Positions 282 to 29,900 of a stretch of 35,147 nucleotides of DNA are shown piece by piece. A program made the position numbers and the translations under genes. Within the stretch, counting starts at the first letter, position 1. The number at the start of each line of letters is the position of its first letter. This stretch comes from a virus: positions 1-35,147 of the IMG/VR virus record IMGVR_UViG_3300046369_000195. The stretch is one strand, 5' to 3'. The notes under the pieces are model-generated. The model had not been told where the DNA came from, searched no databases, and worked only from the letters and a program-made list of their open reading frames with translations.

Positions 282-644
282 TATGCCGATCAATTGGATG
301 AGATAAACAGGCGTGTCCTGAATGGTGAGATTGATCCGCAAGCGGCTAGGCTTGTGTCGGACAACTTCAAATGGACGGCGGCTAGGTTGCTGCCAAAGGT
401 GTACGGCGACAAGCAGCAGGTTGATGTGACGCATGAGGCTGGTGGGTCATACCTCGACCTGTTGCAGCAAGTGAACAAGGCGGCTCAGTTGAAGCACGTT
501 GATGTGGTAGAACAGAGAGAAGACACAAGTGACGGATTACGCGCACGCGCGACCGAAGTTAACCAGATTTCAGTTAACTCTGATATGCCTAAAAAACAGG
601 CAAACAGGCGAAAAAAAGGCAAAAAGTTATCCACAGGCAGCTAA
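96..644 (+). CDS. terS: Terminase small subunit (putative)
   Basis: The protein is about 182 residues and should recognise phage DNA and load it onto the large terminase for packaging. The N-terminal half looks like the helix-turn-helix small terminases of P22/Sf6-type phages, with the segment WVEFLSRVTAGR and then PAWGTTWNKIHNDKDF. The middle part DNFKWTAARLLPKVYGDK is a common ending of that fold. The tail is very basic (KKQANRRKKGKK) and may touch DNA. A TTG at 75 would extend it by seven residues. I prefer ATG at 96 because it overlaps the upstream stop and follows GAGG at a fair distance. The position just before the methyltransferase and large terminase supports the call. The last 90 bases carry a 21-base repeat and a DnaA box. 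Confidence 0.8.
   Translation: MSARLPDEVWVEFLSRVTAGRAGQSVCKDKDMPAWGTTWNKIHNDKDFERKYMNALASRGMIYADQLDEINRRVLNGEIDPQAARLVSDNFKWTAARLLPKVYGDKQQVDVTHEAGGSYLDLLQQVNKAAQLKHVDVVEQREDTSDGLRARATEVNQISVNSDMPKKQANRRKKGKKLSTGS
558..578. repeat. GTTAAC-type 21-base repeat, copy 1
   Basis: Two GTTAAC hexamers flank a short AGATTTC-like core. It lies inside the small terminase reading frame. It matches the intergenic copy at 716-736 at 19 of 21 positions, both differences being A to G in the core. Such paired sites near a terminase gene could be packaging, origin or regulator sites. Confidence 0.75.
627..635 (+). other. Perfect consensus DnaA box TTATCCACA
   Basis: The nine bases match the classic bacterial DnaA box exactly. 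They fall in the last codons of the small terminase gene (K-L-S-T), just before a 173-base gap. A single box can occur by chance and the codons are ordinary, but it lies between the two 21-base repeats and next to palindromes. It is a candidate origin element for a phage with no polymerase of its own. Confidence 0.45.
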
Positions 645-671
645 GTCATTGTATTTGCACGATACGCGTTA

Positions 672-691
672 CGCATAATTAACGTTATGCG
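672..691. repeat. Short palindrome in the terS-methyltransferase gap
   Basis: The arms CGCATAA and TTATGCG pair perfectly around a six-base loop TTAACG. No T-run follows, so a terminator is unlikely. A protein-binding site is more plausible. Confidence 0.5.
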
Positions 692-715
692 ACATTTCTG
701 CAAAATATGTGCAAA

Positions 716-736
716 GTTAACCGGATTTCGGTTAAC
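716..736. repeat. GTTAAC-type 21-base repeat, copy 2
   Basis: This copy is a better palindrome than copy 1: arms GTTAACC and GGTTAAC surround GGATTTC. A further GTTAAC sits at 810-815, beside the methyltransferase start. That makes five GTTAAC hexamers within 258 bases. I noticed single copies at roughly 4-kb spacing elsewhere. Confidence 0.8.
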
Positions 737-738
737 CA

Positions 739-766
739 CCCCCCCCATCGAAATATCGCGGGGGGC
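739..766. repeat. C-run/G-run inverted repeat
   Basis: Eight C at 739-746 face six G at 760-765 across an AT-rich spacer, and A-rich sequence follows. A stem of six G-C pairs is possible. The absence of a T-run on the plus strand argues against a terminator. Long C and G runs are also prone to sequencing error. Confidence 0.4.
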
Positions 767-817
767 GGGAATAAAAATATATACCCCTTACCACCCCACC
801 CCCTTCGGAGTTAACGC

Positions 818-26687: not shown

Positions 26688-27642
26688 CTTTTGACTCCTT
26701 AATGGTTAAGGTTGACTGCCGGACAATCCGTGCGGGCTTGGCCGGTGTCGTCTTGGCCGGTTGTGCCTTGAAGTTACGCATTGGCCACTTCACATAGTAA
26801 GAGCGATTGCCGACCACCCCGACCGCCTCATCGTGGCTGCCCAGACGTTCTTTCAGCATAGCCTCAGCTTCGTCGATGTCGCCTTCAGCGGCTCGCTTGG
26901 CGTCCTTGGCGTTAACCAACTGAGCCAGCCAGTCGTTGTCTTCGCCCTCAAGCGTGATTGGCGGTGCGCCGTCATCAACACGCGGATAGGCGGTATTGCC
27001 GTCAGAGCTGGACTGGATCGGATACCAGTCCACGTCAAGCTTGCGTCGCTCAAACTCCTCGATTTCATCCGTGATGCGCGACTGCACCGCAGCGTTTGCC
27101 TGATACAAGAATATGCGTAGCTCCACACCGCCGTACAAGACGCACACAGCGCCCCACGTTTTTTTCGTCGCAAGCAATTGACCTTGCAACTGCAATACCC
27201 CCCTATGAGGCGCTGGGCGGTCTTCAGGCTTGGCGCTGGTCAGCTTGCTCTCCAAGACGCCGACGCCGTCCACCCAGACAGGGCCGTCAACACAATAGAT
27301 GCCCTTGGCTGGGTCTGTGGTGACTTCATGCCCTAGCCCGCCGTCAGCGGTGCCGTCAAGCGACGCGGCAAATGGTAGAGTGTCGTGAAAGATGGCGTCG
27401 TGTTCCAGCTTCAGGTCAGTCAGGTTGAGCCGTTCAGCGGCCTCAGTCAGGATCATGCCTTCGGAACGGTCGCCCCAATCGCAGGCTTCGTTGCCGTTGA
27501 ATGGGTCGGGATCGGGCTTGCCTTCGATTGAGGCTAGTGCCTTGGCAAGCTGATCGTTGGGTGTCTTGTACGGCGACATATTCATAATTACCGGAATTAC
27601 CGAAGCGGTTATGATGTCGTCGGGTGTCTTTTTACCGACCAT
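26680..27642 (-). CDS. YqaJ-type viral exonuclease/recombinase
   Basis: The 320-residue protein has the lambda-exonuclease/YqaJ fold. MNMSPYKTPNDQLAKAL is followed by DWGDRSEGM (E61), FAASLDGTAD (D96), GVLESKLTSA (E131, K133) and GVLQLQGQLLATK. All expected active-site residues are present. The enzyme resects double-stranded ends for single-strand annealing. No separate annealase of the Bet/RecT type is seen, but the SSB-like protein at 30801 or a host protein may serve. The C-terminus is basic and Pro-rich (TTPAKPARIVRQ). GGAG for this gene lies inside the end of the homing endonuclease. Confidence 0.87.
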   Translation of the reverse strand: MVGKKTPDDIITASVIPVIMNMSPYKTPNDQLAKALASIEGKPDPDPFNGNEACDWGDRSEGMILTEAAERLNLTDLKLEHDAIFHDTLPFAASLDGTADGGLGHEVTTDPAKGIYCVDGPVWVDGVGVLESKLTSAKPEDRPAPHRGVLQLQGQLLATKKTWGAVCVLYGGVELRIFLYQANAAVQSRITDEIEEFERRKLDVDWYPIQSSSDGNTAYPRVDDGAPPITLEGEDNDWLAQLVNAKDAKRAAEGDIDEAEAMLKERLGSHDEAVGVVGNRSYYVKWPMRNFKAQPAKTTPAKPARIVRQSTLTIKESKDD

Positions 27643-28853
27643 TAGTTAGTCTCCTTTTTTGGTGTTTGTAAAATAGTTGGTATGGTGACAGCGTCCTCAA
27701 TGCTCCACCCCCTTTGTAGTCTTGCTTTGACTGTAGCGAACAAAATGTTGTTCTTTTTGCCTAAGCAACGACAAGCCTCATCTAAGCTAGGGTATGTCTT
27801 GCCGAACACCTCTGTCTCTTTAGCAAGAGGGTGTTTGTTTTTTGGCTTTGGCTCAAGGCCAGCAGCTTGCTCTGGTGTGTAGCCTGAGTGCAGCCGCATA
27901 AACCAAGCGCTTGCTGTTAAGCCATAAAACTTTGCCGCAGCAACGTTGGTCTCAAAGGTCATCCCATCAATGGTTATGGGCTTGTGGTTTTTTTTGAAAA
28001 CCTTTTTTTCAACAACGCCAAACGCCTCCTCAGGCGTCCACCCAAGACGGCCTAAGCGTCCTCTGGCGGTGCTTTCATTCACTCCATAAAAGTCTGCCGC
28101 AGCCTTTATATTGGGGAATGTGCGGCCTTCAACAGTAACCTCAATGTATATAGCGTTTTTATGGTTACGAGGCTCAAGGTCAATTGCTTGCTCTATTGTC
28201 CAGCCGCGCTGCAAACGAGCTTTAGTGCGATAAAGCAAGACGCCGTAATGATCGGCAATGTGCTGGATACTGCAAAACCTTTTGCCATCTACCCGCCATC
28301 CATTGCCGCCCTGTCTCGGGCCTCCGTTGTTAGTGTACTTAACGCCCTCTCTATATGCTGGCGGTGTATCAACGCCAAACGCCTGCTCGATTGTCCAGCC
28401 ACTATCTATTCTTTCTTTGACGGCCTTTTCGCCTATTGGCCTTTCGTCTGGGTGTCCTCCAGCCGCGCCTTGCAAGGGCATTGGTTGCAGTTGCCTCACA
28501 GCCTCTGCAAAAGATGGGTAAACAATTCCGCCGACTTTTATCGGGCGCATCTCTCTTGGTTCAGGAGAGTAACCGCCGGGGCTTAAATTGTATCCGTCCG
28601 GCGCGATTGTTTTCATTTTACTTATCCAGCGCGCCTCTTTTTTAGACAAACTTCGCAAAGATTTTGCTTGGTCGATTTTTGCAAAATCAAACACATCCTT
28701 GCCAAATTTCTTTATGGCTTCCGCAAGAGAGCCTTTAACCCCTTTATTCCTTTCTGCGGCACGGATGTGTTCTCTGACGCGCTTTTCAAAATTGATTGTA
28801 GCCCCAACATACTGCATACCGTTTACCGTATTGGTCGCAAGATAAACAATCAT
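27642..28853 (-). CDS. GIY-YIG homing endonuclease with five HTH repeats
   Basis: From ATG at 28853 the 403 residues start with a GIY-YIG nuclease: VYLATN and YVGA stand for GIY and YIG, with FEKRVREH as the catalytic Arg region, then KEARWISKM and GYNLSPGG. The rest comprises five units of about 45-65 residues, each with [VI]-x-G-x-x-[FY] at the start and R[LI]-x-x-G-[WY]-[ST]-x-E-[EQD]-A at the end. Examples are KARLQRGWTIEQA, GRLGRLGWTPEEA and MRLHSGYTPEQA. These are helix-turn-helix repeats of the NUMOD/IENR type and should read a long DNA target. The longer frame to 28955 overlaps another small gene. No intron is seen, so this is a free-standing mobile gene within the operon. It is AT-richer than its neighbours. 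Confidence 0.88.
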   Translation of the reverse strand: MIVYLATNTVNGMQYVGATINFEKRVREHIRAAERNKGVKGSLAEAIKKFGKDVFDFAKIDQAKSLRSLSKKEARWISKMKTIAPDGYNLSPGGYSPEPREMRPIKVGGIVYPSFAEAVRQLQPMPLQGAAGGHPDERPIGEKAVKERIDSGWTIEQAFGVDTPPAYREGVKYTNNGGPRQGGNGWRVDGKRFCSIQHIADHYGVLLYRTKARLQRGWTIEQAIDLEPRNHKNAIYIEVTVEGRTFPNIKAAADFYGVNESTARGRLGRLGWTPEEAFGVVEKKVFKKNHKPITIDGMTFETNVAAAKFYGLTASAWFMRLHSGYTPEQAAGLEPKPKNKHPLAKETEVFGKTYPSLDEACRCLGKKNNILFATVKARLQRGWSIEDAVTIPTILQTPKKETN

Positions 28854-28972
28854 CCCGCACCCCCAAAACGAGCCATCAGCGCCCAGAAGTTCAGCTCTGA
28901 ACTGACAATGTTTGTGAAAAAAGCCAAGCCAAATGCCATCAGCAACAGCATACAAATTGTGTCTTTAATCAT
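28850..28972 (-). CDS. Tiny membrane protein (40 residues)
   Basis: A short leftward frame starts MIKDTICMLLLMAFGLAFF and ends WALMARFGGAG. It has one membrane helix (about 5-20). GGGAGGGTGAC before ATG is a good ribosome site. The ATG overlaps the TGA of the preceding gene, and its own TGA overlaps the ATG of the homing endonuclease. The double coupling makes a real gene likely. The function is unknown; membrane effects such as superinfection exclusion are only speculation. Confidence 0.6.
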   Translation of the reverse strand: MIKDTICMLLLMAFGLAFFTNIVSSELNFWALMARFGGAG

Positions 28973-29708: not shown

Positions 29709-29900
29709 ATGTCAGAGATTAAACCAGTTTTGTTGAGGCTCAGAGCCTCGACCATAGAAATGTTAAAAAAGGAGCTGGAATTATCGGCTCACCGTAGCCA
29801 GTCGTCGCTGGCCGACGAGCTGCTGGTAAAGCAGTTGGAGGCAAATGCACGCCAGCGCAATATGCAGTTTGAGATGGATCGCCAAGCGGGGCGGGTCTGA
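29709..29900 (+). CDS. Ribbon-helix-helix (Arc/MetJ-like) regulator
   Basis: The 63-residue protein has a short strand PVLLRLRAS followed by two helices (TIEMLKKELELSAHRS and SSLADELLVKQLEAN), the plan of ribbon-helix-helix repressors that bind DNA as dimers. It is the first rightward gene beside the palindrome, so autoregulation and control of the leftward promoter are likely. No antitoxin partner is evident. The next gene overlaps by one base. Confidence 0.75.
   Translation: MSEIKPVLLRLRASTIEMLKKELELSAHRSQSSLADELLVKQLEANARQRNMQFEMDRQAGRV

Follow-up and report, generated by a model that had tools for sequence, protein, structure and literature searches.

What does a phage do with a cluster of short repeats at its terminase genes? 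The original prediction proposed that such a cluster could be an origin of replication recruiting DnaA, a packaging site read by the small terminase, or an operator. The window, i.e., the whole stretch of 35,147 nucleotides that was analysed, is one phage genome, circular in assembly, whose first ~285 bases nearly repeat the last ~285. These contig ends (1-285 and 34863-35147) are imperfect repeats, as if two strains had been joined when the circle was assembled, and the true genome length is about 34.86-34.9 kb. Three plus-strand genes surround the cluster: the small terminase subunit of Sf6 type (TerS, 75-644; PF20901, E = 2.6e-21, phrog_1482), a DNA methyltransferase (MTase, 818-1333; phrog_799, E = 2e-55), and the large terminase subunit (TerL, 1335-2732; phrog_2, E = 2e-51), the last being 73.5% identical to TerL of phage C72C1. 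Elsewhere on the map, an ORF resembling homing endonucleases of the GIY-YIG type (27642-28955, minus strand) is patchy among relatives.

The sequence elements listed in the prediction are all present. Five GTTAAC hexamers lie within 258 bases, from 558 to 815 (starting at 558, 573, 716, 731, and 810). The whole window contains 14 copies for 7.0 expected, a count reached in 1 of 100 shuffles, so that five in 258 bp are far from chance; the remainder of the genome, outside the cluster, shows no enrichment. Four of the hexamers form two 21-mers identical at 19 of 21 positions, both palindromic: GTTAACC-N7-(A/G)GTTAAC at 558-578, and GTTAACCGGATTTCGGTTAAC, with 7-bp arms, at 716-736. No other part of the genome has a high-scoring copy (about 30 bits for these two versus 9 for the next). 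A perfect DnaA box, TTATCCACA, is found between them at 627-635 on the plus strand, the sole perfect copy in the window, and the further palindrome with 7-bp arms is CGCATAA-TTAACG-TTATGCG (672-691). The left 21-mer and the DnaA box are not intergenic; both are contained in the TerS ORF (75-644), at its 3′ end. The fifth GTTAAC (810-815), directly before the MTase start, is not consistently kept among relatives and looks incidental. Methylation of GTTAAC by the adjoining MTase was considered and rejected, the MTase being absent in most relatives that keep the repeats. A CtrA-type reading was rejected by inspection: the CtrA-type motif is TTAA-N7-TTAA, and the TTAA spacing here is 11.

The conservation of repeats and box in relatives, on which the prediction had been made to depend beforehand, was found, both being kept at fixed spacing; hence the region is functional. 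The GTTAAC pairs and the DnaA box occupy the same offsets in relatives found by TerS down to about 55% TerS identity, below which they are gone from the exact-match count. In most close relatives two GTTAACC-N7-GGTTAAC palindromes, 158 bp apart, frame the palindrome at 672-691, and they evolve as inverted repeats; in one relative (L029) the spacing is 148 bp, one helical turn less. The prediction was thus right about a conserved and functional region, and it missed the main element, which it saw only as a palindrome. By its sequence, this palindrome, extended to 668-695, is a dif-like XerC/XerD site, and it is the element common to every subclade, including those lacking the box and the repeats.

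The 28-bp site lies on the minus strand, where it reads ATGTCGCATAA-CGTTAA-TTATGCGTAAC, with an XerD-type arm at 668-678, a centre at 679-684, and an XerC-type arm at 685-695. It has the layout of dif (11 + 6 + 11 bp), arms of the host type, and the CATAA core common to host dif. In every subclade it takes the form N6-CATAA-N6-TTATGCGACA-W, including in C72C1, whose TerS is only 35% identical. Comparison with the dif of Rhizobiales and gammaproteobacteria shows that the XerC-type arm, when reverse-complemented, reads TTATGCGACA. The pattern CATAA-N6-TTATGCGACA is present in 44 of 385 alphaproteobacterial genomes, nearly always once (the reversed control in 3), with centres that include TATATA, TATACA, and TATACG. 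In the candidate host order, the pattern with TTATGCGACA occurs once per genome in 92 of 136 genomes (reversed control, 0), and this arm of the phage site is identical to the dif arm of that order. A single-contig genome of 2,753,527 bp from the order, possibly Candidatus Puniceispirillum marinum (SAR116), has the dif TTTACGCATAATATAAATTATGCGACAA, which has one full arm in common with one phage relative. The usual orientation of the host site is TTGTCGCATAA-TRTATA-TTATGTAA(N3), from which it follows that the conserved phage arm is of XerC type and that the site of the window is on the minus strand. The dif of Magnetospirillum is CGTCGCCATAATATACATTATGCGACAA (PMC2731167). Since its arms match those of host dif, the site could also serve as a marker for host prediction.

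Within the cluster, conservation is highest at the dif-like core. Relatives were selected by TerS and TerL without use of the site, and only from this set, not from sets selected by pattern, can conservation of CATAA and TTATGCGACA be claimed: 72 of the 76 distinct TerS-TerL segments have the site, and the four without it come from distant families. It occurs exactly once in all 14 near-complete genomes (12 relatives, the window, and C72C1). The MTase gene, which separates the site from TerL in the window, is optional: only 2 of the 12 near-complete relatives have it. In one relative (L230 and L235) the site is found on the opposite side of TerS, which lies 241 bp downstream of it. None of the 14 phage genomes codes for a tyrosine (PF00589) or serine (PF00239) recombinase, and PF00589 is also missing from 14 further records, most of which have TerL-adjacent sites. 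The integrase-bearing phage phiM5 lacks the site. In an alphaproteobacterial MAG, one contig codes for a TerL with 52% identity; an integrase gene lies about 12 kb from this TerL, and there is no dif-like site nearby.

Proximity of dif and terminase is found well beyond this group. Searching viral contigs with the 22-base alpha dif pattern alone yields matches from many phage families, and of 20 site-adjacent proteins picked from different contigs, 16 are terminase large subunits. In these pattern scans, whose contigs are redundant, whose loci are at most about 15 kb, and whose null for TerL adjacency is drawn from the same loci, the TerL start (phmmer) is no more than 1500 bp from the site in 67 of 73 TerL-bearing loci among the alpha matches listed (random positions: mean 16.5, maximum 30 in 2000 trials), and TerL is within 1.5 kb in 49 of 50 TerL-bearing loci among the gamma matches listed (random positions: mean 11.1, maximum 23). 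The gamma-type pattern had been picked independently of the finding. Of the reversed-pattern controls, one gave 42 matches, none near TerL, and the other gave 0 matches; the Rhizobial-type dif has 20 viral matches, none within 1.5 kb of TerL. Among the matches listed, the TerL genes group into 21 clusters when the threshold is 60% identity and into 3 when it is 30%, and TerL is on the XerC side of 48/54 (alpha) and 24/31 (gamma) distinct sites. A point against the reading preferred below is that several isolates whose TerL is related (HTVC010P and relatives, MEP301, Hodr) have no clear dif-like site beside it. In one contig (L257), possibly a phage-plasmid, the site is beside a ParB-like protein in place of TerL. 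No report of dif beside terminase was found in the literature searched. We tentatively propose, at odds a little short of even, that this arrangement is widespread and unrecognised in integrase-less tailed phages of alpha- and gammaproteobacteria, where the dimer-resolution enzymes of the host would circularise or monomerise the genomes and self-matching centres would bar recombination with host dif.

Several other sequences keep fixed distances to the dif-like site. Relative to its start, the left palindrome is 110 bp before, the right palindrome 48 bp after, the DnaA box 41-42 bp before, and a TAAGTCATTG element (642-651) 26 bp before. The DnaA box is at this distance in every relative that has it, always one per genome. 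In two groups TerS ends upstream of the box, which is therefore noncoding there, and the box is still intact. The TAAGTCATTG element is kept whether or not a subclade has the DnaA box, C72C1 included, with the 26-bp distance in most subclades. Its reverse complement fits the IHF consensus partly in the window and fully in some contigs. It is not a part of host dif, as the exact element is near dif in 0 of 385 genomes. Two distant relatives without the dif-like site (L070 and L072) have IHF-consensus-like sequences, ATCAATAGCTTA and ATCAAAGACTTA, directly after TerS. The fixed spacings are compatible with a folded nucleoprotein complex. Against a role of all these elements as XerCD accessory sequences, the DnaA box and the palindromes are absent from some subclades that retain the site.

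Our preferred reading, to which we give a probability of about 0.5, is that the cluster is a phage-borne XerCD site with accessory sequences that serves to circularise or monomerise phage DNA. The dif identity rests on the match of sequence and layout, and we infer XerCD binding, intramolecular use, the accessory roles, and the position of pac. Host XerC and XerD would bind the 28-mer core (668-695), and the palindromes, the DnaA box, and TAAGTCATTG would bind DNA-bending or bridging proteins controlling the synapse. The phage having no recombinase, host XerCD would recombine a pair of sites carried by the same phage molecule, either following infection or while the DNA is being replicated; there would be one site at each end of a terminally redundant genome, or one in each unit of a dimer. 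The phage DNA would thereby be circularised or monomerised, as by Cre at P1 loxP. In headful packaging the DNA beside the packaging start is duplicated, as is the case for P1 loxP, and its duplication at both headful ends would explain why the site is beside TerS and TerL. For recombination between phage copies, a match of the site to itself is enough, and it is on these grounds that circularisation or monomerisation is favoured. A point against this reading is that most accessory sequences here are on the XerD side; those of plasmid cer/psi lie on the XerC side.

Integration was the first thought because CTXphi, VGJphi, and TLCphi integrate at dif (PMC4246890, PMC5357621). The site would then be an attP at which host XerCD integrates the phage into host dif, as for the filamentous phages among the IMEX (integrative elements exploiting Xer), mostly by XerC-side strand exchange as in VGJphi. 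A dif-like core in a phage that, like IMEX, has no integrase of its own fits this idea, as does a Cro/CI-type HTH protein in the related C72C1 lineage. The alpha centres also fit: next to the XerC arm they retain YGT, which in many cases is compatible with host TGT/CGT, whereas on the XerD side they are mismatched, which is the pattern of VGJphi (PMC4246890). This XerC-side compatibility is partial in the alpha set and missing in the gamma set, where, among the matches listed, the host centre TGTATA occurs in 0 of 31 TerL-adjacent sites versus 9 of 46 loci without TerL. The centres of most phages differ from host dif and vary fast between close relatives, which speaks against integration. So do the flanks: wherever a locus extends far enough, TerS precedes the site (127/127) and TerL follows it (111/111), a few contigs being counted twice, and about 100 contigs show no host junction. 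No lysogens of close relatives were found in a scan of genome contigs, and TerL of this group is missing from all 136 candidate-order genomes, in which each dif-bearing genome has a single dif. Occupied dif sites were also sought in 16 host regions, and no phage genes were found there. The integrated copies at host dif that characterise IMEX are thus not seen, and attachment does not explain adjacency to TerL. Integration ranks second after circularisation or monomerisation by host XerCD, and we regard it as unlikely.

A pac or cos site is a rather improbable third reading, in which TerS would recognise the bend element and both 21-bp palindromes, with the dif-like core having an incidental or secondary role. 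The cluster is at the TerS end, and phages of P22/Sf6 type have pac in or near TerS; the IHF-like elements are at the TerS end in the dif-less L070 and L072 as well. Yet conservation is strongest in the dif-like core, whose match to host dif arms would not be required of a terminase site, and the palindromes are absent in C72C1. Contigs of close relatives end at 739-805 far more often than elsewhere, with 14 of 33 right ends in one 75-bp stretch, 100-175 bp past TerS, which speaks for pac; however, this pile-up is one-sided, matching left ends not being enriched, and coincides with a C8...G6 inverted repeat (739-765) found upstream of MTase/TerL in all subclades, even the distant L158. Because many contigs end there, this hairpin is probably an assembly obstacle, and the C-tract is disfavoured as a physical genome end. 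Some packaging link of the region is nonetheless plausible because dif-like sites adjoin TerL in many phage families.

Very improbable is an operator pair, independent of the dif-like core, for a phage regulator of the MTase/TerL operon. In its favour, the palindromes have symmetry, occur just twice in a genome, and are separated by about 15 helical turns, as in repressor loops, but no sigma-70-like promoter or terminator was found between them, and no regulator was identified. A 63-aa protein at the start of the early operon (29709-29900), with a strongly conserved LLRLRxST...SLADE motif, is present in all window-clade genomes and absent from C72C1. As a ribbon-helix-helix binder of the 21-mers it is unsupported: the predicted fold is one long helix (pTM 0.44) and uninformative. 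Least credible of all is a DnaA-dependent origin with iterons, for which one can cite the perfect box under DNA-level conservation, the two conserved repeats, and a phage that codes for a primase-helicase with, as predicted, no DNA polymerase recognised among the proteins scanned; against it, there is a single box, not significant by itself, the two repeats are palindromic rather than tandem, GC skew tracks the coding strand with no inflection at the cluster, so that the boxes, tandem iterons, and skew of a DnaA-type origin are not found together, and several subclades without the box keep the rest, leaving the proposed recruitment of DnaA with no independent support.

Among phages that integrate, filamentous, micro-, and tectivirus-like ones are known to use dif. 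Here, such a site adjoins the terminase of tailed phages that show no trace of integration, in many TerL lineages and two host classes. If the preferred reading is true, the chromosome-segregation machinery would be linked to genome circularisation or packaging in tailed phages. With chromosomal dif/XerCD of alphaproteobacteria, the phage site shares the 28-bp layout, the inner arm sequences, the single occurrence per genome, and the XerC-type arm, which is the same in the candidate host order; it differs in being phage-borne, in its centre and outer XerD-type arm, and in its phage-specific flanking elements. Like the attP of IMEX (CTXphi, VGJphi, TLCphi, gokushoviruses, and tectivirus-like phages), it is a dif-like site without a phage integrase. 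Unlike these, it is found in tailed phages of about 35 kb, beside the terminase, with no integrated copies found and a centre mostly mismatched to the host. Plasmid cer/psi are multimer-resolution sites with a Xer core and accessory protein sites at fixed spacing, and the phage site resembles them in its core and putative accessory sites at fixed spacing, whereas its accessory motifs are different, mostly on the XerD side, and in a phage context. The loxP-Cre system of P1 likewise places a tyrosine-recombinase site near packaging genes, and the circularisation and monomerisation proposed here are the same; the difference is that, in place of a phage-encoded recombinase, the enzymes of the host would act.
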